A stretch of 11,493 nucleotides of DNA from an uncultured Clostridia bacterium (lineage in GTDB: Bacteria; Bacillota; Clostridia; Christensenellales; UBA1242), in contig CAMOCI010000008.1 in NCBI GenBank assembly GCA_946610635.1, positions 1 through 11,493 on the forward strand. Reading direction: 5' to 3'. The position numbers were made by a program, and so were the translations under genes. The notes under the pieces are model-generated. The model searched no databases. It had not been told where the DNA came from and worked only from the letters and a program-made list of their open reading frames with translations. Below are positions 1,646 through 11,486 of this stretch, piece by piece (position 1 is the first letter of the stretch; each line of letters starts with the position of its first letter).

Positions 1646-2770
1646 ATGGAAGAACAAAAAGCGGAAAAATATTTTAGAGCAGATGTACAGGGTGGATACC
1701 TTTACAACAAAAGCGAGATTGACTATTACAAGCAATCTCAAATTATTGATGTAATGGATAATCTTATGCTTGGTGATTACAACTCTAAAGGTGGATATGT
1801 TTTAAATAAAGGCATTATTGAAGAACTTGTTAAAATGAAAAAAGTTTATCAATATTCTTTTGGGTCAACAACGTTTTGTCAAAGTTTTAGTGATGTTGGC
1901 AAATACGGCAAAATAGACTTTGCTGTTAAGGTTAGAAATAGTCAAGACGGCATGGTGACATCAACTTTGCAACTTTTGGAAACTATCGATAGAGCAAATG
2001 GCTACTACCAAAACACCAACACTGCATCTATTGCAGAATATAAAGCAAAAGAAAGTAACACGTATATTGTTGATATGTTAAAGCATTTTAATATCGTGTC
2101 AAAAAAAGAAGAAGGACTTTTGAATAGAGAAAATATCGACGAAGAACTTGACTTAATTATTGCAAGAAAGCAATTGCAAGAACTTTTAAAACAAAACTGC
2201 ATGCAAAAGATTGATGAAGAAAATAAATCTTTGTTTGAAAAAAGAATGAAACTTCTTGCAAAATGCGTAGTAGGTAAAAAAATATTTGAAGAGTTTGAAA
2301 AAGAAACAACAAAAATTGCAGGTTGGTTTGTTAAAGAAGGCATGCCGGGTTATTACAGATATTTAAACCAAATGTTAGATGGATTAATAGAAATGCATTC
2401 TATAGAAGTTTTACAAGACCCTGCTTTAAAAGCTGGTTTAAACAAAGCAAATGATATATTTGCTGAGAATATGCACAAACATCTCGAAAATGGTAAAAAA
2501 GTTTTTAAAGTTGAAGAAATTTCAAAATTAGGCGATAAAAAAGAAGAAATTAAAAAACCAGAAGAAACTACTGAAAAGTTTAAAGAAGATAAAGGTGCTG
2601 AAAAGCCAAAAGAAAAACCAGTTGAAAAACCTAAGGAAGAAAAAAAAGAAATAGTTCAAAAGAATAAGAAACAAAACAATAGAGATTACATGAAAACATT
2701 TAACAAAAGTACGAATAGAAGTGAAGAATTAAATAAGAGTAATCAAGTAGATAAGGAAGCTTTATTATAA
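1646..2770 (+). CDS. Unknown cytosolic protein with charged Lys/Glu/Pro tail (374 aa)
   Basis: I do not recognise this protein. The start is ATG 1646, preceded by AAGGCGG about 6 bases upstream; the frame stays open further upstream but only through the promoter. No signal peptide or membrane segment is visible. Residues 1 to about 297 look like a folded, mostly helical domain, with helix-rich charged stretches around 150-220 and some Cys residues but no CxxC pair. Residues 298-374 are low complexity, rich in K, E, P, N and Q (for example EKPKEKPVEKPKEE), probably disordered. The gene stands alone behind a strong promoter, divergent from leuS, and ends 16 bases before the next promoter with no terminator in between. 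Base composition matches the neighbouring housekeeping genes, so recent transfer is not suggested. It may be specific to this lineage. Confidence 0.85.
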   Translation: MEEQKAEKYFRADVQGGYLYNKSEIDYYKQSQIIDVMDNLMLGDYNSKGGYVLNKGIIEELVKMKKVYQYSFGSTTFCQSFSDVGKYGKIDFAVKVRNSQDGMVTSTLQLLETIDRANGYYQNTNTASIAEYKAKESNTYIVDMLKHFNIVSKKEEGLLNRENIDEELDLIIARKQLQELLKQNCMQKIDEENKSLFEKRMKLLAKCVVGKKIFEEFEKETTKIAGWFVKEGMPGYYRYLNQMLDGLIEMHSIEVLQDPALKAGLNKANDIFAENMHKHLENGKKVFKVEEISKLGDKKEEIKKPEETTEKFKEDKGAEKPKEKPVEKPKEEKKEIVQKNKKQNNRDYMKTFNKSTNRSEELNKSNQVDKEALL

Positions 2771-2786
2771 TTTTTAAATTTGGGTA

Positions 2787-2815
2787 TTGACAAAGTAAAA
2801 AAAACGATATATAAT
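2787..2815 (+). promoter_or_regulatory. Consensus sigma-A promoter of the 132-aa unknown gene
   Basis: TTGACA (2787-2792), a 17-base spacer and TATAAT (2810-2815) are an exact match to the vegetative consensus. Transcription should begin near 2822, directly before the AGGAGA ribosome site at 2825-2830, giving a leader of about 14 bases. This is the strongest promoter in the window on sequence grounds. Confidence 0.85.
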
Positions 2816-2835
2816 GGTTCTACTAGGAGACAAAA

Positions 2836-3234
2836 ATGGTAACATTAAAAACAGTTAATGGAAACTTGCATAAATATTTAAAGTTAGAAATGAAGCAAGA
2901 TTTTGATAATTTTGAAAATAAAATGGGCAGTGATGCCTTTGAAAACACACAGGCATTATTATTTTTGGCTATATCAGGTAAAATGCCAGCAGAAAAAAAT
3001 CAAGAACTTTTTAAAGACCTTGTTGAGTGCTATTGTCATATACCAGAGTATAAAGCACTTGTAGATAAGGGTTTAGATCACCTTACAAAAACTTATGGCA
3101 ATCAAGTAATTGATTTGGGTGATAAGGTTGCAAGTGGCAAAACTTATTTTAAAGAAGTTAAAAAACAACTTATTAGTGGAGATTTTGATTTTAATGCGCT
3201 TGGTGTTAAAAAACAAGAAGAATTTAATTATTAA
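2836..3234 (+). CDS. Small unknown protein (132 aa)
   Basis: I do not recognise this protein. ATG 2836 follows AGGAGA at a spacing of 5 bases and a perfect consensus promoter; a terminator follows just after the stop. This makes a monocistronic, probably highly expressed unit. The product is soluble, has no signal peptide or membrane segment, and looks largely alpha-helical (QALLFLAISGKMPAEKNQEL, then LVECYCHIPEYKALVDKG). The Cys pair in ECYCH is too closely spaced for a normal zinc knuckle. It sits between the 374-aa unknown gene and rpmG. A connection to the 374-aa gene is only suggested by adjacency and orientation; each has its own promoter. Confidence 0.85.
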   Translation: MVTLKTVNGNLHKYLKLEMKQDFDNFENKMGSDAFENTQALLFLAISGKMPAEKNQELFKDLVECYCHIPEYKALVDKGLDHLTKTYGNQVIDLGDKVASGKTYFKEVKKQLISGDFDFNALGVKKQEEFNY

Positions 3235-3640: not shown

Positions 3641-3654
3641 GGGAGGGTTTGGTA

Positions 3655-4029
3655 GTGTCTAAATCAAACAAAAAAAAGAAAAATCAAAAGGCAAATTTGC
3701 AAAATAACAAGCCTGTTGTTGCTAGTGAAGAATTAGCACAAGATATACAGGCACAAAATGTTATAGAAGAAGCAAAGGTTGAAGAATCTAAGCCAAAAGC
3801 GGATAAAAAAGAAACGCTTAAAAAACAAAAAAAGCAAAATAAAGAACAGAAACCAAGAACAAACAAGGTTAAAGAAAGTGTTGCAGAACTTAAAAAAGTT
3901 ACATGGCCAACATTTCCACAAGTTGTAAAAAATACACTTTTAGTACTTGGTATTGTTTTAATTTTTACTATCGTATTATTTGGCATTGATTTTGGATTAG
4001 GACAACTTTACAAATTGTTAACACAATAA
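3655..4029 (+). CDS. secE: Preprotein translocase subunit SecE with long charged N-terminal extension
   Basis: Membrane subunit that clamps SecY in the Sec translocon. The diagnostic segment VAELKKVTWPT is at residues 76-86, followed by one transmembrane helix at about 93-115. Single-helix bacterial SecE is usually about 60 residues; here some 70 extra residues, rich in K, E, Q and N, precede the core and are probably disordered and cytosolic. I choose GTG 3655 as start because GGGAGGG (3641-3647) lies 7 bases upstream; the in-frame TTG at 3649 is only one base from that site. The product is 124 aa. It sits between rpmG and nusG, 15 bases before nusG, in the conserved order. Confidence 0.95.
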   Translation: MSKSNKKKKNQKANLQNNKPVVASEELAQDIQAQNVIEEAKVEESKPKADKKETLKKQKKQNKEQKPRTNKVKESVAELKKVTWPTFPQVVKNTLLVLGIVLIFTIVLFGIDFGLGQLYKLLTQ

Positions 4030-4044
4030 GCATAGGAGATTTTT

Positions 4045-4575
4045 ATGGTTATAGATGAAAAACCAAAGTGGTATGTTTTGCATACTATTTCTGGATACGA
4101 AAATGTTGCAAAAATCAATCTTCAAATGGTTGTAGAAAAAAATGGTTTGCAAGATAGAGTTTTTGACATTGTTTGCCCAGAAGAAGATGTAATTCAACAA
4201 AAAGATAGTGGAAAGCAAGTTGTTGTTAAACAAAAAGTTTTACCAACATATTTGCTAGTTAAAATGATATACGGTGATGATATTTGGCATACAATCACAC
4301 GCACTCGTGGCATCACAGGCTTTGTAGGCCCAAAAGGTAGGCCACTAGAACTTACAGAACAAGAAATTCAAACAATGAGATTAGAATCTCAACAAATTGA
4401 TACTTCAATCAAGCCAACAGATAATGTAGAAATTATCGGTGGTCCATTTGATAAAGTTATGGGAGTTGTTGTTGAGCTTGATGCACAGCTTGGCAAAGCC
4501 AAAGTTAATGTGGAAATGTTTGGCAGAACAACACCTATTGATGTATCACTTGACCAAATAAGAAAGATTAACTAG
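4045..4575 (+). CDS. nusG: Transcription termination/antitermination factor NusG
   Basis: Binds the RNA polymerase clamp and couples transcription to elongation, termination and the ribosome. The 176 aa are family-typical in length. The NGN domain covers about residues 8-110 (KWYVLHTISGYE at the start; LPTYLLVKM; TRGITGFVG). The KOW domain covers about 124-176 (VEIIGGPFDKVMGVV with the conserved GPF; the end reads SLDQIRKIN). AGGAG at 4034-4038 precedes ATG by 6 bases. It is the third gene of rpmG-secE-nusG. A GC-rich hairpin begins at its stop codon, and rplK follows only after a 450-base structured spacer. Confidence 0.98.
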   Translation: MVIDEKPKWYVLHTISGYENVAKINLQMVVEKNGLQDRVFDIVCPEEDVIQQKDSGKQVVVKQKVLPTYLLVKMIYGDDIWHTITRTRGITGFVGPKGRPLELTEQEIQTMRLESQQIDTSIKPTDNVEIIGGPFDKVMGVVVELDAQLGKAKVNVEMFGRTTPIDVSLDQIRKIN

Positions 4576-4610
4576 TTCCGGCTACCTACCGGATAGCCGG
4601 CAACTAATTT
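4573..4610 (+). terminator. Probable terminator or attenuator hairpin at the nusG stop
   Basis: CCGGCTA (4578-4584) pairs with TAGCCGG (4594-4600) across a 9-base loop. The stem continues as TAGTT/AACTA around one bulged C, so it includes the nusG stop codon. The following tract (ATTTTCGC) is T-poor, so termination may be partial and allow read-through towards rplK. The 3' arm is also needed for a larger alternative fold of this spacer. Confidence 0.5.
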
Positions 4611-4729
4611 TCGCACTTTTGGCGACTTTTTTGGTACTAGCGTACGGCTATATTTTGTTAAGTATTTATAAATTGGTAAAAAACATAATTATAAATATTT
4701 CTACAAGGTTATTTAGTCGCCAATTAGTT
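4602..4729 (+). other. Nested inverted repeat in the nusG-rplK spacer
   Basis: AACTAATT (4602-4609) and GGCGACT (4621-4627) are together complementary to the continuous block AGTCGCCAATTAGTT (4715-4729), with 11 unpaired bases on the left arm. Inside, TATTTATA..ATT (4663-4674) pairs with AATTATAAATA (4687-4697) around a 12-base loop. No protein is encoded. The fold would compete with the hairpin at the nusG stop because both use 4602-4606. It may be a structured leader or regulatory RNA, or the remnant of an insertion. Confidence 0.45.
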
Positions 4730-4752
4730 TTGCAACAATTATTTAAAAAATA

Positions 4753-4783
4753 TAGACAAAATTGCTACCGAGTTAGATATAAT
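4753..4783 (+). promoter_or_regulatory. Candidate promoter for rplK-rplA
   Basis: TATAAT (4778-4783) has a -35-like TAGACA (4753-4758) at a long 19-base spacing. A start near 4790 would give a leader of about 235 bases that includes all the leader hairpins before rplK. Another candidate, TTACAT (4923-4928) with TATAAA (4947-4952), would start transcription inside the L1-like site and so fits less well. Confidence 0.4.
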
Positions 4784-4926
4784 GTTAAAATTTAATAAAA
4801 CTAGTATTTGATATAAAATAACAAACAAAAATATTAAATTTTGATAATATACTACAAACATTATTAGTAATTCGCGAAATTCGGTAAAAATTCGACAAAA
4901 TATAAAAAAACACAAAATGGTATTAC

Positions 4927-4942
4927 ATAAGCAGTTGCTTAT
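4927..4942 (+). other. Leader hairpin upstream of rplK
   Basis: ATAAGC (4927-4932), loop AGTT and GCTTAT (4937-4942) form a perfect 6-bp stem. There is no following T tract, so it is not a terminator. It lies 12 bases upstream of the L1-like site and may be part of the same leader fold. The rest of the spacer between 4784 and 4926 is AT-rich; I see only three copies of ATTCG (4870, 4879, 4890) there. Confidence 0.45.
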
Positions 4943-4954
4943 TTAATATAAACA

Positions 4955-4996
4955 GTGGGAGAAGTGTAAATTTGTTATGCACTTCAAATGTACCAC
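4955..4996 (+). promoter_or_regulatory. Probable ribosomal protein L1 autoregulatory site in the rplK-rplA leader
   Basis: GTGG (4955-4958) pairs with CCAC (4993-4996) and GAAGTG (4961-4966) pairs with CACTTC (4980-4985). This leaves an asymmetric internal loop of GA on the 5' side and AAATGTA on the 3' side. The 5' strand reads GTGGGAG, the same string as the L1-binding region of 23S rRNA. L1 is known to repress its own operon by binding a 23S-like site in the rplK-rplA mRNA; position and shape fit that. It lies 30 bases before rplK. Confidence 0.55.
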
Positions 4997-4999
4997 AAC

Positions 5000-5014
5000 A
5001 CTACAATTTGTAGT
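5000..5014 (+). other. Palindrome abutting the rplK ribosome site
   Basis: ACTACAA (5000-5006) and TTGTAGT (5008-5014) are perfectly complementary around one base. The palindrome ends directly before AGGAGG (5015-5020). Formed in RNA, this stem could affect ribosome access to rplK, alone or together with the L1-like site just upstream. Confidence 0.45.
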
Positions 5015-5025
5015 AGGAGGAAAAC

Positions 5026-5454
5026 ATGGCAAAGAAAAAAGTTAAAGCAGTTATCAAATTGCAACTACCTGGTGGTAAAGCAACACCTGGTCAAAGCGTT
5101 GGTTCAGCATTAGGACCTCATGGAATTCCAACAATGGACTTTTTAAAGCAATTTAATGATGTTACAAAAGACCAAGTTGGTTTAATTATTCCAGTTATTG
5201 TTACAGCGTATGAAGACAGAACATTTAGTTTTGTAACAAAAACACCACCTGCAGCAGTGCTTATTAAAAAAGCATGTGGCATCGAAAAGGGCAGTGGCGC
5301 ACCTAACAAAACAAAAGTTGCAAAAATTACAAAAGCACAAATTAAAGAAATTGCAGAACTTAAAATGAAAGACCTTAACGCTGCAAGCTTAGAGAGCGCA
5401 ATGAGCATGATTGCTGGCTCTGCAAGAAGCATGGGCGTAACGGTTGAAGAATAA
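5026..5454 (+). CDS. rplK: 50S ribosomal protein L11
   Basis: Component of the L7/L12 stalk base; binds the GTPase-associated region of 23S rRNA and, in species that have RelA, is needed for its activation. The 142 aa are the standard length. Hallmarks seen: [20 protein letters not shown] at the start, the Pro-rich linker [10 protein letters not shown], and the C-terminal RNA-binding region ending [19 protein letters not shown] (5015-5020) is 5 bases from ATG. It is the first gene of rplK-rplA, 39 bases before rplA, with a structured leader that resembles the L1 control site. Codon use and sequence are ordinary for this genome. Confidence 0.98.
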
Positions 5455-5493
5455 AGTGGAAGAATATAATTCGTTATCACCACAGGAGGATTT

Positions 5494-6183
5494 ATGAAAA
5501 AAAGAGGAAAAAGATATTTAGAAGTTGCAAAACTTGTTGATAAACACGAAGTTTATGACGTTGAAAAAGCAACCGAACTTGCTATTGCAACAAGCGTTGC
5601 AAAGTTTGATGCAACAGTAGAACTTCACGCAAAACTTGGCGTTGATGGTAAAAAAGCAGACCAACAAGTTAGAGGTACAGTAGTATTACCTAACGGAACA
5701 GGTAAAACTGTTAAAGTTTTGGTAATTGCAAAAGGTAACGCTGCAGATGCTGCCGAAAAAGCAGGCGCAGATTATGTTGGTGCAGAAGATATGATTACAA
5801 AAATTCAAGGCAATTGGCTTGATTTTGATGTTTGTATCACAACACCAGATATGATGGGTTTTGTTGGTAGAGTAGCAAAAGTTTTAGGTCCAAAAGGCTT
5901 AATGCCAAATGTTAAAAGTGGCACAGTTACAATGGATGTTGCTAAAGCAGTTGCAGATGCAAAAGCTGGTAAAGTTGAATACAGACTTGACAAGCAAAAC
6001 ATTGTTCACGTTGCTATTGGTAAAGTTAGCTTTGGTAAAGAAAAATTGTTAGAAAACCTTAACGCAGTTATGGACGCTTTAATCAAAAGCAAACCACAAG
6101 CAGCAAAGGGTATTTACCTTAAAAGTTTGGCACTCGCTTCTTCAATGGGCCCAGGTGTTAAATTTAACTACAAACAAAATTAA
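5494..6183 (+). CDS. rplA: 50S ribosomal protein L1
   Basis: Builds the mobile L1 stalk that guides deacylated tRNA out of the E site; also the usual translational repressor of rplK-rplA. The 229 aa match the family length. Visible: the N-terminal KKRGKRYLE, the [12 protein letters not shown] motif of domain I, the domain II core with [18 protein letters not shown], and the C-terminal [21 protein letters not shown] at 5484-5489 precedes ATG by 4 bases. A terminator follows within 60 bases. In many Firmicutes rplJ-rplL-rpoB come next; here a repeat island follows, so the cluster is interrupted. Confidence 0.98.
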
Positions 6184-6361: not shown

Positions 6362-6507
6362 TGTCATCCTGAGGAGCAACGCGACGTGAGGATCTCAACA
6401 ATATAAATACTACTTGTTCATCTCTCATTATTGAAAGATTTACCCACGGAGATTAATGTGGTTGAGATCCTTCGTGTGTCAAGAAATAAGTCGGTCTCAG
6501 GATGACA
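6362..6507. repeat. Palindromic repeat pair 1 (head-to-head copies 6362-6400 and 6433-6507)
   Basis: The left copy begins TGTCATCCTGAG and ends GGATCTCAACA; the right copy is its inverse, GTTGAGATCC to CTCAGGATGACA. Each copy also closes on itself by ATCCT/AGGAT (6366-6370 with 6389-6393; 6467-6471 with 6499-6503). The inner half contains the box GAAAGATTTACCCACGGAGA (6433-6452), which recurs at 6671 and, altered, at 11413. The two copies have different inner loops, so they are not a simple duplication. Confidence 0.85.
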
Positions 6508-6516
6508 ATCTCACAC

Positions 6517-6551
6517 TGTCATTCTGAGGAGCAAAGCGACGTGAGAATCTC
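6517..6551 (+). repeat. Palindromic repeat, single copy
   Basis: Starts TGTCATTCTGAGGAGC and ends GAGAATCTC. The stem is ATTCT (6521-6525) with AGAAT (6544-6548). The loop closely matches the first copy at 6362 (GGAGCAAAGCGACG against GGAGCAACGCGACG), while the stem differs by a compensated base pair. Confidence 0.85.
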
Positions 6552-6564
6552 GTATAAATACCAC

Positions 6565-6659
6565 TGTCATTCTGACCCTACTTTTGTCGTAGACCTAGGA
6601 AGAATCTTATATGGTTGAGATGCTTCCAAAGAAGTGCAGAAAGCAAGGTCAGCATGACA
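6565..6659. repeat. Palindromic repeat pair 2 (copies 6565-6608 and 6613-6659)
   Basis: The left copy starts TGTCATTCTGACCC, contains CTAC..GTAG and closes by ATTCT/AGAAT. The right copy, inverted, is GTTGAGATGCTTCC to GGTCAGCATGACA and closes by ATGCT/AGCAT (6620-6624 with 6651-6655). The copies carry different stem letters, so pairing is kept inside each copy rather than between the two halves. Only a few bases separate them. Confidence 0.85.
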
Positions 6660-6670
6660 ATAAAAAAATT

Positions 6671-6743
6671 AAAGATTTACCCACGGAGATATATAATGTT
6701 GAGATGCTTCCTAAGATAAAGAGAAAGTAATGTCAGCATGACA
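6671..6743 (-). repeat. Palindromic repeat, single inverted copy with conserved flank box
   Basis: Begins with the box AAAGATTTACCCACGGAGAT (6671-6690), then GTTGAGATGCTTCC, and ends TGTCAGCATGACA. The stem is ATGCT (6704-6708) with AGCAT (6735-6739). The inner loop TAAGATAAAGAGAAAGTAA is the same type as in the copies ending at 7372 and 7897. Confidence 0.85.
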
Positions 6744-6751
6744 TTTTATAC

Positions 6752-6796
6752 TGTCATTCTGACCCCTACCCAAATCGTAGACCCAGGAAGAATCTC
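6752..6796 (+). repeat. Palindromic repeat, single copy
   Basis: TGTCATTCTGACCCC to AGGAAGAATCTC, with stem ATTCT (6756-6760) and AGAAT (6789-6793). The inner loop holds CTACCCAAATCGTAG and is related to the copies at 6565, 7186 and 8053. Confidence 0.85.
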
Positions 6797-6859
6797 TTTT
6801 TGTCATTCTGACCTAGCAGTATATCTTGACTTAGGAAGAATCTCAACCACATTAAAAAC

Positions 6860-6888
6860 TTGATTATAATAAAGATAAGTACTATAAT
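6860..6888 (+). promoter_or_regulatory. Promoter of the GIY-YIG gene
   Basis: TTGATT (6860-6865) and TATAAT (6883-6888) lie 17 bases apart. The -10 box ends 6 bases before the start codon, so the transcript probably begins at or next to the start codon (leaderless). A second TATAAT at 6865-6870 has no matching -35. Confidence 0.6.
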
Positions 6889-6894
6889 AAAAAT

Positions 6895-7182
6895 GTGAGT
6901 AAAAATTATTTTGTTTATATATTAACGAATGTTAACAATACAGTTTTATATACTGGCATTACTAACAATTTAGAAAGAAGGACTATTGAACATGCTCTTA
7001 AAATTAACAAAAACGGTTTTGCAGAAAAATATAATTGTGAAAAATTAGTTTATTATGAACAAACGACTGACGTAAAAATAGCAATTGAAAGAGAAAAGAA
7101 AATAAAGGGCTTAACTAGATTTAAAAAGTTTCAGTTAATAAAAAATTTTAATCCAGAATTGAAAGATTTATTAAAAGAATAA
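6895..7182 (+). CDS. Small single-domain GIY-YIG nuclease-like protein (95 aa)
   Basis: GIY-YIG domain proteins cut DNA using a Tyr and a metal-binding Glu. Here YFVYIL (residues 5-10) and YTGIT (19-23) are the two halves of the signature. LERRTIEH (26-33) holds the conserved Arg and His, and AIEREKKIKG (63-72) holds the expected catalytic Glu. The whole protein is this one domain, the size of the YhbQ/UPF0213-like group, with no DNA-binding extension. The start is GTG 6895; no ribosome site is visible and the -10 box ends 6 bases upstream. The gene lies between inverted copies of the local palindromic repeat and may act on those repeats; that is inference. The family's cellular role is generally poorly defined. 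Confidence 0.85.
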   Translation: MSKNYFVYILTNVNNTVLYTGITNNLERRTIEHALKINKNGFAEKYNCEKLVYYEQTTDVKIAIEREKKIKGLTRFKKFQLIKNFNPELKDLLKE

Positions 7183-7234
7183 TTTGTTGAGATTCTTCCT
7201 AGGTCTACGACAAAAGTAGGGTCAGAATGACAAT

Positions 7235-7271
7235 CTATGTATCGCATAGCGTAAAGGTGCCAAGGGGGCAC
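7235..7271 (+). other. Two small hairpins between repeat copies
   Basis: CTATG (7235-7239) pairs with CATAG (7245-7249) and GTGCC (7257-7261) pairs with GGCAC (7267-7271). The second stem ends exactly where the next repeat copy begins (TGTCAC at 7272). No coding frame or T tract is present. Confidence 0.4.
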
Positions 7272-7372
7272 TGTCACTCTGAGACTAGCTATTTTCTTGG
7301 CCAACGAAGAGTCCCACAAATATGTGGTTGAGATTCTTCCTAAGATAAAGAGAAAGTAAGGTCAGAATGACA
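7272..7372. repeat. Palindromic repeat pair 3 (copies 7272-7318 and 7321-7372)
   Basis: The left copy starts TGTCACTCTGAG and closes by ACTCT (7276-7280) with AGAGT (7308-7312), a compensated variant at a different stem position from other copies. The right copy, inverted, closes by ATTCT/AGAAT (7333-7337 with 7364-7368) and ends GGTCAGAATGACA. CCACA and TGTGG meet at the centre around a 4-base loop, giving one palindrome of about 100 bases. Confidence 0.85.
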
Positions 7373-7748
7373 ATCTAAAAATCTTATAAACATACATTAA
7401 TTTAAAAATTTGATAAAATTCAACAATTTTTTACTGTTTTTTTTTGTTTATTTTTATAATAATAAAATTTTTTTTATTATTGCATGTAAAGTAATGTTAA
7501 ATTATATCTTAAAATTATAGTTATAAAGTTATAAATATCAAAAAAAAGTTAAAATTTTTTTAATTTTTTTGTTAAAATTGTTTTACAAATTTTTTTTTTT
7601 ATATTATACTATCAATGTATCAAACAAAAGGCATGTACAATAATTTTAAAAAACTTGTCATTTGGTTGTTACAAAAGTTTGTGCAAAAGGTAATTTGCAT
7701 TTTCGCAAAATGGCCCTTGTGCGAACTATTGCGTTTGCAAAGCAAACG
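7373..7748. other. AT-rich non-coding tract with hairpins at its right end
   Basis: Long A and T runs (about 7430-7610) with no convincing gene. From 7694 the composition changes: TTTGC/GCAAA (7694-7698 with 7705-7709), then a 7-bp hairpin CGTTTGC-AAA-GCAAACG (7732-7748) that ends exactly at the first base of the next repeat copy. The open frame 7615-7833 runs through these hairpins and the repeat, and is not credible as a gene. Confidence 0.6.
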
Positions 7749-7897
7749 TGTCATGCTGAGGCTGGCTTTATTCTTGACTACCGAAGCATCTCAACCACAT
7801 AAATCTCCAATGGCAATCTTTCATGTAAGATAGACAAGGAGCAATTATATTGTTGAGATTCTTCCTAAGATAAAGAGAAAGTAAGGTCAGAATGACA
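7749..7897. repeat. Palindromic repeat pair 4 (copies 7749-7824 and 7851-7897)
   Basis: The left copy starts TGTCATGCTGAGG, closes by ATGCT/AGCAT (7753-7757 with 7785-7789) and runs on through CTCAACCACATAAATCTCC and an inverted form of the AAAGATT box. The right copy, inverted, closes by ATTCT/AGAAT (7858-7862 with 7889-7893) and ends GGTCAGAATGACA. The left inner loop is the same type as the copy at 7272; the right one matches that ending at 7372. Confidence 0.85.
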
Positions 7898-7906
7898 ATA
7901 AAAAAA

Positions 7907-7934
7907 GTCACTCTGAAAAAATGTCAGAATGACA
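7907..7934. repeat. Minimal repeat: outer ends only
   Basis: GTCACTCTGA (7907-7916) and TCAGAATGAC (7924-7933) form a 10-bp stem with one mismatch around a short A-rich loop. The outer termini are present but the GAATCTCAAC half and inner loop are missing, as expected for an internal deletion. Confidence 0.6.
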
Positions 7935-8006
7935 AAACTTCATTTTGGTATTATCGTACAAACCTAAGTACGTTAATATACATAGTGGCAAAGTTACTTG
8001 TAACAA

Positions 8007-8035
8007 TGTCACACAAGTGGCGTTAAGCCATGACA
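8007..8035. repeat. Unrelated hairpin with TGTCA/TGACA ends
   Basis: TGTCA (8007-8011) pairs with TGACA (8031-8035), and TGGC (8018-8021) with GCCA (8027-8030), with six unpaired bases on the left. It shares only its first five and last five bases with the main family. Just upstream GTTAC-TT-GTAAC (7993-8004) is another small palindrome. Confidence 0.4.
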
Positions 8036-8052
8036 CAAAGCAAAACTTTTAA

Positions 8053-8096
8053 GAGATTCTTCCTGAGTCTACGATTTAGGTAGGGTCAGAATGACA
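8053..8096 (-). repeat. Palindromic repeat, single inverted copy
   Basis: GAGATTCTTCC to GGGTCAGAATGACA, stem ATTCT (8056-8060) with AGAAT (8088-8092). The inner part GTCTACGATTTAGGTAGGG is the inverse of the type in the copy at 6752. It lies 80 bases upstream of the secreted-protein gene and may be in its leader. Confidence 0.8.
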
Positions 8097-8112
8097 GTTT
8101 TGCAAAAAAATG

Positions 8113-8146
8113 GTGACTAGAAGTCACAAACAAAAAGGCGAAAGCC
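8113..8146 (+). promoter_or_regulatory. Two leader hairpins before the secreted-protein gene
   Basis: GTGACT-AGA-AGTCAC (8113-8127) and GGC-GAAA-GCC (8137-8146, a GNRA-type tetraloop) lie 48 and 29 bases upstream of the start codon. A possible promoter is the extended -10 TGGTATTAT at 7946-7954, without a good -35 and with repeat sequence between it and the gene. 5' hairpins of this kind can stabilise mRNA; no known riboswitch is recognised. Confidence 0.4.
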
Positions 8147-8174
8147 AAAAATATAAAAAATGGAGGAAAACAAA

Positions 8175-8843
8175 ATGGTAAAAAGTAAAAAAATGTCAAA
8201 AACAAGCATTGCTATCATCGTTTTAGCATTACTTTTGGTTTTGAGCATGGTTATGGGTCTTACTGGCGCTTGGTTTACAAGTTCTGATAAAAATGGCCCT
8301 AATGGCGAATCTGCAACCATTAATATGGGTAGTGTTAAAGTTGCTTTAACAGCAGATACAGCAATGGGAGCTGTTCAATACGGTTCTAGAAATGGTGATG
8401 CAGTTGTACAAAAATTGGTTGATGGAGATAATTTGACAATAGTATATGGAGTTGATAACACATCAGATGTTGATATTTACTATGCTATTAAATCTTTGTC
8501 AGTTAAGGTTTATGCTGATAGTACAAAAGAAAATGAATTGGCAGATTATGAAAGATACTTCAAAGCTTATGTTGGCGAAGCTACAACTCCTGTAACTTTA
8601 GCACAAGCATTTGCTTCTCAAACTACTGCTCAAAAACTTGTAAATGGTGAAGACGTTGCTAATACAACAGTAAAACTTGTATTTGATTCTGAAGGTTTAG
8701 CAAATCATGCATTGCCAGATACACAAGCTTCTATTTACATTGAATTTATTATTGAAGTTGGTGCAGTACAAGCTGCTCATATCTCAGCTGCTGACGCTAT
8801 GAAAGTTATCAATGGTCAACCTGTAACTGGTTTTATTGATTAA
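8175..8843 (+). CDS. Secreted TasA/camelysin-like protein with SipW-type signal peptide (222 aa)
   Basis: The N-terminus has a basic KSKK region, a hydrophobic core at about residues 11-29 and LTGAWFTSSD (29-38), which resembles the TWAAF or TYAYF cleavage region of precursors processed by the signal peptidase SipW. The mature part fits the TasA/camelysin layout: ATINMGSVKVALTAD (47-61) at its start, DNLTIVYGVDNTSDVDIYYA (85-104) as the paired-strand region, and a strand-rich end with YIEFIIEVGAVQAAHI. TasA is a biofilm fibre protein and camelysin a surface protease-like protein; which activity applies here is unknown. The start is ATG 8175, because GGAGG (8162-8166) lies 8 bases upstream; ATG 8160 overlaps that site. 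No sipW or tapA is in the window. Confidence 0.75.
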   Translation: MVKSKKMSKTSIAIIVLALLLVLSMVMGLTGAWFTSSDKNGPNGESATINMGSVKVALTADTAMGAVQYGSRNGDAVVQKLVDGDNLTIVYGVDNTSDVDIYYAIKSLSVKVYADSTKENELADYERYFKAYVGEATTPVTLAQAFASQTTAQKLVNGEDVANTTVKLVFDSEGLANHALPDTQASIYIEFIIEVGAVQAAHISAADAMKVINGQPVTGFID

Positions 8844-8863
8844 TAGATTGAATCTTTAGCAGT

Positions 8864-8904
8864 TAAAAAAAATGAGTTATCTCTAATGATAACTCATTTT
8901 TTTT
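8864..8904. terminator. Bidirectional terminator between convergent genes
   Basis: ATGAGTTATC (8872-8881) and GATAACTCAT (8888-8897) form a perfect 10-bp stem with a 6-base loop, with eight A on the left and eight T on the right. It can stop the secreted-protein transcript on the plus strand and the fibre-gene transcript on the minus strand, whose stop codon (8903-8905) overlaps it. Confidence 0.92.
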
Positions 8905-11083
8905 AATTGTTTTTAAAATATTTTAATTTTCCATTAACAATACAAAAATAATCATTATTCGAACCTAAAAAATATTCATCATATTCACCTATAAAACTGT
9001 AACTAATATTTCTAATATTATAACTATAATAATCTACAACTATTTTAACTATTTTACCAAAATAGTTCCCATAAATATAATATTCATTTGTTGATGCTGT
9101 ACCATTTTGATTAGGATAAATATGGCAATTTATTAAATTTGGACATTGTAAAACATAGTTATAACTAGAATAACTAAAAACAAATTTCGTAGTGCCATTT
9201 TTCATTATAGTTACTGCACCAGGGAAACTACCATTAACCATATCAAAATTTATTTTACATGCATCCAAATTTGCTATTGAAGTTTGGTCAGAAAAATATC
9301 TCGTATATGTTGTTGTAAAGTTTAAATATATATAATAATAATATGCTGTAGTCACGTTTTTTACAGCAGAAACTGCATAAATAGGATATTCATTTTTTTC
9401 CATTATAAACTGTGAAACCTTATATGTTCCTTGTGGCATGATATGTACATTACTATTATGATGAATCTCAATATTTGTATTTTTCTTTGTTATCATATAA
9501 AACATTGAACTAACAAATATTTGATTTCTATTATCTTTGCTGTAATTAAAACCAAATTGATATCTTTGAGCCTCTATTCCAGTATCTATCCAATTTATGT
9601 CATTTATATTATTTAGTTCATCTTTCCTAATTTCACATATTTTGGCATATCCACTTCTACAGTCACTTAAGTAATATTTATCGGTATATTTGCAATAAAC
9701 CACATCGTATGGATTTATTTTATTTTGTATTATTACATTTGGAGCAGTAATTTCTACCAACAAATGTTTTATTTTTATTTCTGTTACTTCATTAACTGAA
9801 TTACCAACAATATACAAATTATGCATTTTACTATTACATTCATAATCGTTTATAATTTTTACAACTTGTAAATTTTTATGTAAATCACTTGATTGATATG
9901 AAATTGATATCGTATCAATTAAATTATTATTATCATAAATTTGAAATGTGGTGTTATTACTAACCTCTAATGCTTCATAATCAATATATATTACTATCTT
10001 TGCTTTTGCCGTTTCAGAAGTAATTGTTCCATTATTGTTAGTTGTAACAACATTATTTGTTGTAAAAATAATATTCGGTAATAAAAATTCATTAGTACCT
10101 ATGCCGTGTATGTCCAGTTCTCTATCGTAATAATCAAATGTTTTTATAATATCTGCATTATTGTTATATGTAACAAAATTTTCATTTTTTTTATTGGGAT
10201 CTATTGTACCATTAATTATACCTAATATTTCTGATAGCTCTTCAATATTATCAAAATTTTGTTCTACTTGGTCTTGCAAATCTTCAAAATCTTGTTGAGA
10301 AACGCCACCACTCGCGTTTTGCCAGCTTGCGCCGCCTTGCCCATCGGCAGTTAGCACTTGGCCTTGTGTTGCAAGCTCACTATCAACATCACCAGCAGTT
10401 ACTGACGATAGCCCACCACCATTTGTTGCACTTATCACACCATTTGTAATATCAATGCCCGTGCCGGCGGTGTAAGTTGTGTTAGTTGCACTAATTTGAT
10501 TATTGGCATCTATTGTAATGTTATTGCCGGCGGTTAATATATCTTGTTTGCTTTGTAAATCTGTTTTTGTTGCCAAATTGGTGGTATCTATTTGTGGCAC
10601 ACTTGCACTAATAACTCCATTATTTATTGTTATATTGTTGCCGGCGGTCAAAACATCTTGCTTTGCTTGCAGTGCGTCATAAAGTTTGCCACTAGAAAGT
10701 ACATTGTTGCTATTTTGCGTTGGGGCGTTATCAAAAATCAAGTTGTTTTGCTTTGCGCTTTGCAAATTAATAATACTTTGTGTGTTGGCTGCAACATTGC
10801 TTGTGTTTACAGTCACTTCACTTTGCAGCGCTGCAAGGTTTTGGTTTAAGGTGGCTATGCCTAAACTGTTTGTAGATATTTGATTTAGTGCATCATCAAA
10901 ATTTTGCGTGCTTTGGCTAACAACATCAACTGCTTGATTTAAGCCATTTACCTTGGTTTGCAATTCATCTATGTTTAATTGCATTTCAGTTGTTTTTTTG
11001 TAATTTTCTGCATCTTTAATTTGTGATTTTTTTGTATTTTTTACATGTAAAATCTTACTATCTCTTGGATATTTTATATTCAT
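8903..11083 (-). CDS. Phage-tail-fibre-like adhesin (726 aa)
   Basis: Likely a trimeric fibre that binds a surface or receptor. Residues about 31-110 look like a coiled coil (heptad-rich, with NIDELQTKVNGLNQAV). Then come repeats typical of tail fibres: KQDVLTAGNNITI (141-153), KQDILTAGNNITI (179-191) and TAGTGIDITNGVISA (205-219), then GQVLTADGQGGASWQ (241-255) and a second coiled coil at about 262-290. Residues about 300-726 are rich in N, Y, I and T, probably beta-stranded, and unrecognised. No signal peptide or LPXTG-type anchor is visible, and no tail, chaperone or lysis genes lie nearby. The coding sequence for the first 295 residues is clearly richer in G+C than the rest, so the gene looks mosaic. 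AAGGAGT precedes ATG by about 8 bases. Confidence 0.75.
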   Translation of the reverse strand: MNIKYPRDSKILHVKNTKKSQIKDAENYKKTTEMQLNIDELQTKVNGLNQAVDVVSQSTQNFDDALNQISTNSLGIATLNQNLAALQSEVTVNTSNVAANTQSIINLQSAKQNNLIFDNAPTQNSNNVLSSGKLYDALQAKQDVLTAGNNITINNGVISASVPQIDTTNLATKTDLQSKQDILTAGNNITIDANNQISATNTTYTAGTGIDITNGVISATNGGGLSSVTAGDVDSELATQGQVLTADGQGGASWQNASGGVSQQDFEDLQDQVEQNFDNIEELSEILGIINGTIDPNKKNENFVTYNNNADIIKTFDYYDRELDIHGIGTNEFLLPNIIFTTNNVVTTNNNGTITSETAKAKIVIYIDYEALEVSNNTTFQIYDNNNLIDTISISYQSSDLHKNLQVVKIINDYECNSKMHNLYIVGNSVNEVTEIKIKHLLVEITAPNVIIQNKINPYDVVYCKYTDKYYLSDCRSGYAKICEIRKDELNNINDINWIDTGIEAQRYQFGFNYSKDNRNQIFVSSMFYMITKKNTNIEIHHNSNVHIMPQGTYKVSQFIMEKNEYPIYAVSAVKNVTTAYYYYIYLNFTTTYTRYFSDQTSIANLDACKINFDMVNGSFPGAVTIMKNGTTKFVFSYSSYNYVLQCPNLINCHIYPNQNGTASTNEYYIYGNYFGKIVKIVVDYYSYNIRNISYSFIGEYDEYFLGSNNDYFCIVNGKLKYFKNN

Positions 11084-11117
11084 ATAATATTACTCCTTTT
11101 TATATTATAATAATTAT

Positions 11118-11146
11118 TAGATACACCCATTTTTTGCCGTTGTAAA
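11118..11146 (-). promoter_or_regulatory. Candidate promoter of the fibre-like gene
   Basis: On the minus strand TTTACA (11146-11141) and TATCTA (11123-11118) are 17 bases apart. The predicted start, near 11111, leaves a leader of about 28 bases with AAGGAGT in it. A closer TATAAT (11109-11104) has no recognisable -35. Confidence 0.4.
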
Positions 11147-11180
11147 CTTTTTGTGACGGCGCTTTTTTTTGCGTGTCACA
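11136..11180. other. Two overlapping, mutually exclusive hairpins upstream of the fibre gene
   Basis: GCCGT (11136-11140) can pair with ACGGC (11156-11160), followed by GC and eight T in the plus direction, like a terminator. Alternatively TGTGAC (11152-11157) pairs with GTCACA (11175-11180), with CGC/GCG inside and the T run as loop. Both use 11156-11157 and 11160. No plus-strand gene precedes them. The tract 11181-11350 holds nothing I can support. Confidence 0.45.
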
Positions 11181-11352
11181 CAAATTAGGCAACACTCTTT
11201 TTGCGTGATAAAATTTGTTTGTTGGTTAATATAACCACAAGTTTAAATATTATCTCTTGGTTATTTAGGCTTTGTTATTTTGTAATACTAACTATGTTTT
11301 ACATAATGAAAAAACAGCAGTTTAAAAAAAATATTTTATATTATTTTATAAA

Positions 11353-11401
11353 GTGGTTGAGATGCTTCCAAAGAAGTGCAGAAAGCAAGGTCAGAATTAC
11401 A
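11353..11401 (-). repeat. Palindromic repeat, decayed inverted copy
   Basis: GTGGTTGAGATGCTTCC to GGTCAGAATTACA. The stem letters do not match (ATGCT at 11362-11366, AGAAT at 11393-11397) and the end is TTACA instead of TGACA. It is the only copy in the window with a broken stem. Confidence 0.75.
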
Positions 11402-11412
11402 TAAAAAAAAAT

Positions 11413-11486
11413 GAAAGATTCACACACGGAGATTTATGTGGTTGAGATGCTTCCAAAGAAGTGCAGAAAGCAAGGTCAGCATGACA
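11413..11486 (-). repeat. Palindromic repeat, intact inverted copy
   Basis: The box GAAAGATTCACACACGGAGA, then TTTATGTGGTTGAGATGC and an end GGTCAGCATGACA. The stem is ATGCT (11447-11451) with AGCAT (11478-11482). The inner loop CCAAAGAAGTGCAGAAAGCA is shared with the copies at 6613 and 11353, more than 4.5 kb from the first. Confidence 0.85.

Follow-up and report, generated by a model that had tools for sequence, protein, structure and literature searches.

Among the systems described so far, those closest to the element treated here are the CGTC-tagged repetitive extragenic palindromes (REPs), for which five phyla have been named and for which a dedicated transposase has been stated to be absent (Di Nocera, De Gregorio, Rocco 2013, PMC3733652). 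In the parts of that work drawn on here, each unit is given an unpaired CGTC or TGTC tag, a stem of 8-9 bp that starts nearly always with a complementary AT, a loop of 4-5 nt and a tail that is mostly CCA; the units are mostly intergenic, dimers are mostly of one oppositely oriented kind (HH), clusters are rare, and Table 1 records no association with a transposase gene. The same parts place Neisseria repeats in the superfamily, and the Neisseria repeat dRS3 is written as ATTCCC(N8)GGGAAT in the part used here of a further source (PMC3898611). The subject of the present analysis is the window, by which we mean the whole stretch of 11,493 nt at the start of contig CAMOCI010000008.1 from an uncultured Clostridia bacterium, which holds 16 full copies of a palindromic repeat unit and, among these, the open reading frame (ORF) of a small standalone GIY-YIG nuclease that had been overlooked in an earlier note on this DNA. 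Compared with the CGTC-tagged REPs as described in those parts, the window units are alike in carrying an unpaired tag at one end, an A-T stem start and a short unpaired tail, and in being intergenic; they are unlike in having a 5-bp outer stem, an interior of 18-28 nt and a CTC tail, and in being clustered in mixed orientation. The units resemble the superfamily but fail its published stem and loop sizes. What is added to the published picture is the GIY-YIG partner itself, which is present here and accompanied by complementary units at 73 of 80 loci.

Four kinds of observation form the basis of our interpretation: association of gene and repeats, covariation within the stems, correlation between nuclease residues and a repeat base, and joint presence or absence in genomes. 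They suggest that the enzyme reads folded repeats and that the gene-repeat pair spreads as one unit. We consider it likely that the nuclease is the dedicated enzyme of the repeats, that it binds the folded single-stranded unit and probably also nicks it, and that both together make up a selfish REP-like system; recognition, nicking and spread are what we infer from these comparisons.

Stem pairing in the window and in related genomes

The window units are 35-45 nt long and share one layout, in which a TGTC tag is followed by a 5-nt arm, the interior, a second 5-nt arm and the CTC tail. The claim of the earlier note that 15 of the 16 copies have an intact stem, in four versions, has proved exact. 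The version ATTCT/AGAAT is found in eight copies (plus strand: 6517-6551, 6565-6608, 6752-6796 and 6801-6844; minus strand: 7189-7232, immediately 3' of the nuclease gene, 7330-7372, 7855-7897 and 8053-8096), ATGCT/AGCAT in four (7749-7792, plus; 6617-6659, 6701-6743 and 11444-11486, minus), ATCCT/AGGAT in two (6362-6396, plus; 6464-6507, minus) and ACTCT/AGAGT, with the second pair altered on both arms, in one (7272-7315, plus). The remaining copy (11359-11401, minus) is decayed: its stem ATTCT/AGCAT is broken at the third pair, and it bears the only TGTA in place of the TGTC tag. The first stem pair is A-T in all 16 copies, and the second is T-A in 15 and C-G in one. Neighbours with differing stem versions are real as well, namely the tail-to-tail pairs starting at 6565 and 6617, 7272 and 7330, and 7749 and 7855.

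A family pattern in which the third stem pair (the variable pair) is unconstrained on either side has been searched in 59 genomes of the same family. It has given 148 matches in 12 of them, while the pattern read backwards has given none in all 59. From these matches 134 enter the covariation table (135 were listed, and one that contains another was left out), and in 132 the variable pair is complementary: 97 T/A, 17 C/G, 12 G/C and 6 A/T, with C/A and T/G as the exceptions. Shuffling the partners over all copies yields on average 75.4 complementary pairs and at most 89, and 5000 shuffles within genomes average 96.7 and never exceed 109. When identical copies are counted once per genome, 97 of 99 are still complementary, against a within-genome shuffle maximum of 81. 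The genome-wide covariation analysis proposed in the earlier note, carried out here in the near form of partner shuffles, has thus come out in its favour (132 of 134 against at most 109), and the pairing is kept inside each unit, in the family and also across phyla.

Unit anatomy across phyla

Across phyla the comparison is based on 80 named homologue loci, which are the best 80 among the matches kept by a one-genome-per-species scan. The search frame is GTCATxy-N8..50-vuATC[TC], and a complementary unit is one of the form GTCATxy...y'x'ATC[TC]; since GTC and AT belong to the frame, it provides no independent test of the tag and the stem start. Within 700 nt of the gene, 284 of 398 frames have a complementary xy, as compared with a mean of 57.6 and a maximum of 83 in 2000 global shuffles, and a mean of 181.5 and a maximum of 205 in 2000 shuffles within loci. 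The pairing extends inwards, with the next pair, z, complementary in 267 of the 284 units. Directly after the 5' stem arm, 250 of these 267 continue with GA, and before the 3' arm GA stands in 170 and AA in 57. This conserved step is unpaired in the Watson-Crick sense, and tandem sheared G.A pairs would presumably fit it. Of the 284 units, 230 have a T and 36 a C directly before GTC.

The compensatory changes could also have arisen without selection, either by repair templated by the palindrome itself or by the copying of a few ready-made variants. The copies do fall into few versions, and copying whole units would keep their arms linked. Copying alone, though, leaves unexplained why the founders were nearly all paired, and near-identical interiors carry different stem pairs: the interior of the ATGCT/AGCAT unit at 6701 is one base off those of the ATTCT/AGAAT units at 7330 and 7855. 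All four x bases occur paired in the family, and 13 of the 16 xy types are found across phyla, three of them once. Templated repair should moreover have removed the unpaired GA step. Because that step stays conserved and because the nuclease co-varies with the repeat (see below), palindrome repair, which the earlier note had offered as its non-selective alternative, is unlikely as the sole cause, and we regard a non-selective origin as improbable overall.

The earlier proposal that a folded RNA or single-stranded DNA is recognised is supported: the pairing is kept, a recognised folded form would be its natural reading, and DNA is favoured over RNA. All three stem pairs are present in 251 of 307 units near the gene and in 363 of 492 over whole loci. 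Where exactly one of the three positions is unpaired, 7 G.T, 3 A.C and 12 other combinations are found near the gene (n=22), and 11 G.T, 10 A.C and 16 others over whole loci (n=37). In an RNA stem G.U pairs should be tolerated more readily, and these small counts therefore lean to DNA. Given little or no excess of G.T over A.C, and with a neighbouring gene of a DNA-nuclease fold, single-stranded DNA is the favoured recognised form, on small numbers.

The nuclease gene and its association with the repeats

The nuclease gene (6895-7182, plus strand) encodes 95 amino acids and matches Pfam PF01541 with an E-value of 9.9e-15, whereas no NCBIfam model matches the protein. Its relatives have been aligned in two sets, A1 with 14 rows and A2 with 50 rows (the window protein and 49 of the 80 loci). 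Y8, Y19, G21, R29, H33, E67 and N86 are invariant among the aligned relatives, the conserved GIY-YIG residues are intact in the window protein, and E67 is presumably the catalytic glutamate. The nearest solved structures are the UPF0213 proteins 1zg2 and 1ywl, 1zg2 being matched with an E-value of 2.7e-6 by profile A1 and of 0.059 by the single sequence. In the draft genome to which the window belongs (762 kb in 134 contigs, 71% complete), this is the sole standalone PF01541 gene found; the other PF01541 match lies within a 613-aa frame that we have taken as UvrC. Y1_Tnp (PF01797) is the enzyme of classical REPs, and a REP-associated tyrosine transposase (RAYT) has been considered as partner enzyme and rejected, as the draft contains no Y1_Tnp match.

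Gene and repeats go together in the family. The family nuclease is matched in 12 of the 59 genomes (one gene being broken and one a fragment), the repeat pattern in 12, and both in 8 (Fisher p 8e-5). In the fetched stretches of the 12 pattern-bearing genomes, a unit lies at 8 of 10 standalone nuclease loci, at 1 of 10 loci of UvrC length and at 1 of 2 other long-ORF loci. At greater distance, gene and repeats are again found together at loci placed in 17 named phyla, a complementary unit lying within 700 nt of the gene at 73 of the 80 loci. The repeat arms also emerge de novo, with no motif supplied, as the top enriched 8-mers within 700 nt of the gene, the leading one (TGTCATTC) being seen 92 times, against 6.7 expected, at 38 of the 80 loci. 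The density of unit frames falls from 7.0 per kb within 300 nt of the gene to 0.75 per kb at 6-10 kb, and a reversed-frame control stays at 0.15-0.31 per kb in all distance bins. Units occupy 126 of 152 gene-adjacent sides (83%), as against 1-11% of equal windows shifted outward by 1.5-9 kb. For 46 viral GIY-YIG relatives, mostly distant, a unit of any kind within 700 nt is seen in 7 and is convincing by eye in two (L185 and L190). Among the titles and abstract openings listed for this subject, none links GIY-YIG proteins with such repeats, by which we do not claim that the link is unpublished.

These distributions bear on the possibility that the units act as RNA, that is, as terminators or stabilisers of mRNA ends, with the nuclease a chance neighbour or an occupant of the same intergenic spaces. 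Such transcribed hairpins would agree with conserved pairing and with the position of the window units between ORFs, and many REPs have been called plausibly transcribed in the part of the REP survey used here (Di Nocera, De Gregorio, Rocco 2013, PMC3733652). The window, however, has no Rfam match at gathering score, the mismatches show the near balance of G.T and A.C given above, and the units cluster at this nuclease clade rather than at its UvrC-length or viral relatives. Since the nuclease also co-varies with the repeat, as set out in the next section, we hold a purely transcriptional role to be unlikely.

Nuclease residues and the repeat base y

The stem positions x and y behave differently. 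Of the 69 loci with at least two units, 31 show variation at x and 15 at y. The share of unit pairs that differ is 31% for x and 12% for y within a locus, and 46% and 65%, respectively, between loci. In the window, the pattern copies have T, G or C at x, and C at y. The dominant y per locus (73 loci) is C in 39, G in 22 and T in 12. It is tracked by three adjacent nuclease residues, corresponding to G72-L73-T74 of the window protein (alignment columns 71-73), which lie five to seven positions after the invariant E67 and are putative specificity residues, judged from the aligned sequences. For this analysis 78 of the 80 proteins have been placed in a tree (L131 and L144, with stop codons, were left out), and 71 carry a y label. 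At the middle position, Gly accompanies y=G in 16 of 21 loci, while Trp accompanies y=C in 33 of 38, another three of which have Leu like the window; the triplet [KR]WR accompanies y=T in 10 of 12.

When the y labels are shuffled inside host phyla, columns 71-73 have the three highest z-scores (7.4, 6.1 and 5.1), and none of 300 shuffles reaches the observed value. Independent pairs have been drawn 200 times on the best tree that leaves these columns out. The comparison of y=G with Gly has 10 such pairs, which give 7 changes in the same direction, 0 opposite and 3 ties in 161 draws, and 6-0-4 in the remaining 39. That of y=T with [KR]WR has 9 pairs, which give 7-0-2 in 200 of 200.

Beside these correlations, two loci have two repeat types next to one nuclease (GTCATTCT.. 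or GTCATGCT.., and GTCATTGC..), namely L022 in genome G039 and L025 in G001. The G001 nuclease has an SWN motif, which is close to the SW seen in the proteins of L069 and L132; these two accompany y=G.

Clustering, gain and loss

Where the earlier note had called the repeat dispersed, its copies are real, and most of the exact matches sit in this window. With the 3' arm AGNATCTC, the pattern has 16 matches in the draft genome (with the arm ATNCTC, as written in the earlier note, it has none), and 13 of these fall inside the window; the element is therefore clustered here and not spread, as far as the draft tells. The contig of the window ends 7 nt past the repeat copy at 11444-11486. Most window copies form one cluster. 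Of the 15 successive pairs in the window, 5 are tail-to-tail and 4 tag-to-tag, which makes 9 of opposite orientation, and 6 have the same orientation. Two facing 5' half-units without 3' arms lie at 7906-7934, the left one with 2 mismatches against TGTCATTCTGA. A 42-nt stretch occurs in three copies (6432-6473, 6669-6710 and 11412-11453) and runs past the 3' tail of the unit, so that some units belong to longer mosaic repeats.

The sequence at 6565-6607 is the exact inverse of that at 7190-7232, and the nuclease gene is thus flanked by a perfect 43-bp inverted repeat. This arrangement would suit a conventional transposon or a miniature inverted-repeat transposable element, moved by a transposase that is encoded at another place in the genome, the GIY-YIG gene being carried along as a passenger. 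Against such an origin stands the recurrence of the pairing across 17 named phyla, in which the repeat sequence changes and the GIY-YIG protein tracks it; a Y1_Tnp match is also missing from the 71% complete draft, in which other transposase families were not searched. We consider a passenger role very unlikely.

Comparisons of related loci agree with the joint behaviour of gene and units that is expected if the nuclease is the enzyme of the repeats, and are patterns of gain or loss, not observed movement. In G001, a gap of 1089 nt between a VirB6-like and a VirB4-like gene is filled by the nuclease gene and units; in G041, of the same genus, the corresponding gap measures 138 nt and contains neither. 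The upstream genes of the two genomes are homologous (34% over 284 aligned positions), and the names VirB6-like and VirB4-like are our own assumption from sequence appearance, not from a family search. Two nuclease loci of G057 lie 30 kb from each other; in the 11 kb compared, their similarity is limited to about 0.9 kb that comprises array and gene, with no precise element end. In the genus of the window, the gene follows rplA in both G000 and G005, in opposite orientations, a difference that could result from an inversion between inverted units; the G045 contig stops about 230 nt past rplA. G012 and G019 have also been tried as empty-site controls at the VirB4-like gene and are unusable, since no homology to the G001 upstream gene was found in the compared stretch.

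The pair of G019 and G054 has been tried as another empty site and is not clean, a reverse-transcriptase-like block in G019 being inverted relative to gltX in G054, which belongs to the same genus. At this G019 locus (L151, 201-6192), a large repetitive surface-like ORF followed by the reverse-transcriptase-like ORF adjoins the nuclease array, and the two together look like a diversity-generating retroelement.

Neighbouring genes

The array occupies the position after rplA in G000 and G005. Inspection of ORF lists by eye has revealed no recognisable rplJ after rplA in the window (3649-6183) or in L148, L150 and L152, the stretches read being those of G000, G001, G005 and G054. Upstream in the window, two ORFs of 374 and 132 aa without Pfam match (1646-3234, plus strand) precede secE-nusG-rplK-rplA, and the 374-aa ORF is similar at the DNA level to the corresponding neighbourhood of G005 and G045. 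On the other side of the array, a 227-aa ORF (8160-8843, plus) has an N-terminal hydrophobic segment and is perhaps secreted. It is followed by a 726-aa ORF (8903-11083, minus), in the N-terminal half of which LTAGNNITI stretches recur, as if in a phage tail or surface protein; neither of these two ORFs has a Pfam or NCBIfam match. No tRNA has been found in the window.

Proposed mechanism

If the nuclease is indeed the dedicated enzyme of the repeats, the units would fold when their DNA becomes single-stranded, as on the lagging strand, in repair or during DNA uptake. The nuclease would then bind tag and stem and read the base y, with x needed only as a paired position, and would nick the strand of the unit. 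This nick may help units and gene to be copied or to spread, and the resulting arrays may become sites of recombination.

Several results weigh against this interpretation. With DNA energies, the 9 window units that were folded, of which two are identical, do no better than dinucleotide shuffles (z from -1.5 to +1.0), and in view of this missing energy signal, the units would depend on the protein or on non-canonical G.A pairs in order to fold; the covariation shows that the stems are kept, even though they do not stand out in a standard energy model. The joint occurrence is incomplete in both directions, as 4 of the 12 pattern genomes are without a detected standalone nuclease (G011, G029, G045 and G054), and 4 of the 12 genomes with a nuclease match are without the exact pattern: G006, where the gene is broken, G028, where it is a fragment, and G033 and G057, where slightly different units adjoin it. 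Across phyla, 7 of the 80 loci have no paired unit within 700 nt. As regards the residues, three further columns have likewise not been reached in any of 300 shuffles, with lower z, and the specificity residues have been picked from the same 71 rows that were used to score them. On supported branches alone, 1 pair is left for y=G and 2 pairs for y=T, numbers with which the test cannot be significant. Exceptions to the correspondence are found at y=G with Trp (L069, L114, L132 and L141) or Cys (L098), at y=T without [KR]WR (L104 and L140) and at y=C with KWR (L115).

Comparison with known systems

A wider reading extends the proposal from this locus to the whole CGTC-REP superfamily. Standalone GIY-YIG proteins would then be its missing dedicated enzyme in at least 17 phyla, its spread would be a selfish one by single-strand nicking, and residues 72-74 would form a code for y (GW for C, [AG]GS for G and [KR]WR for T) with x read only as a pair; all of this taken together, code included, we put forward tentatively, as somewhat less probable than its being wrong. 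Through the co-occurrence, the stem covariation and the matched change of nuclease and repeat, a candidate partner for the widespread CGTC-tagged REPs becomes directly testable with one small protein and short oligonucleotides, and a site-specific single-strand nuclease that reads a base by such a code could also serve as a tool.

In its arrangement, the locus resembles the RAYT/REP systems (REPtrons and REPINs), in which an enzyme gene is likewise flanked by palindromic tagged repeats with some oppositely oriented neighbours. It is unlike them in that the enzyme is a GIY-YIG protein and not an HUH/Y1 transposase, and in that the tag is TGTC and not GTAG. By analogy, its function would be that of a GIY-YIG counterpart of the RAYT/REP systems.

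A second analogy concerns the GIY-YIG family Ssn of site-specific nucleases, which is reported (2025) to cut single-stranded DNA at a Neisseria repeat (NTS). That repeat is reportedly present in Neisseria in hundreds of copies, as compared with the 16 exact matches in the present draft genome. The window enzyme shares with Ssn that it is a small standalone GIY-YIG protein with intact conserved residues, encoded in a genome that contains copies of a candidate cognate repeat, and if Ssn is as reported, it is probably a further member of that family.

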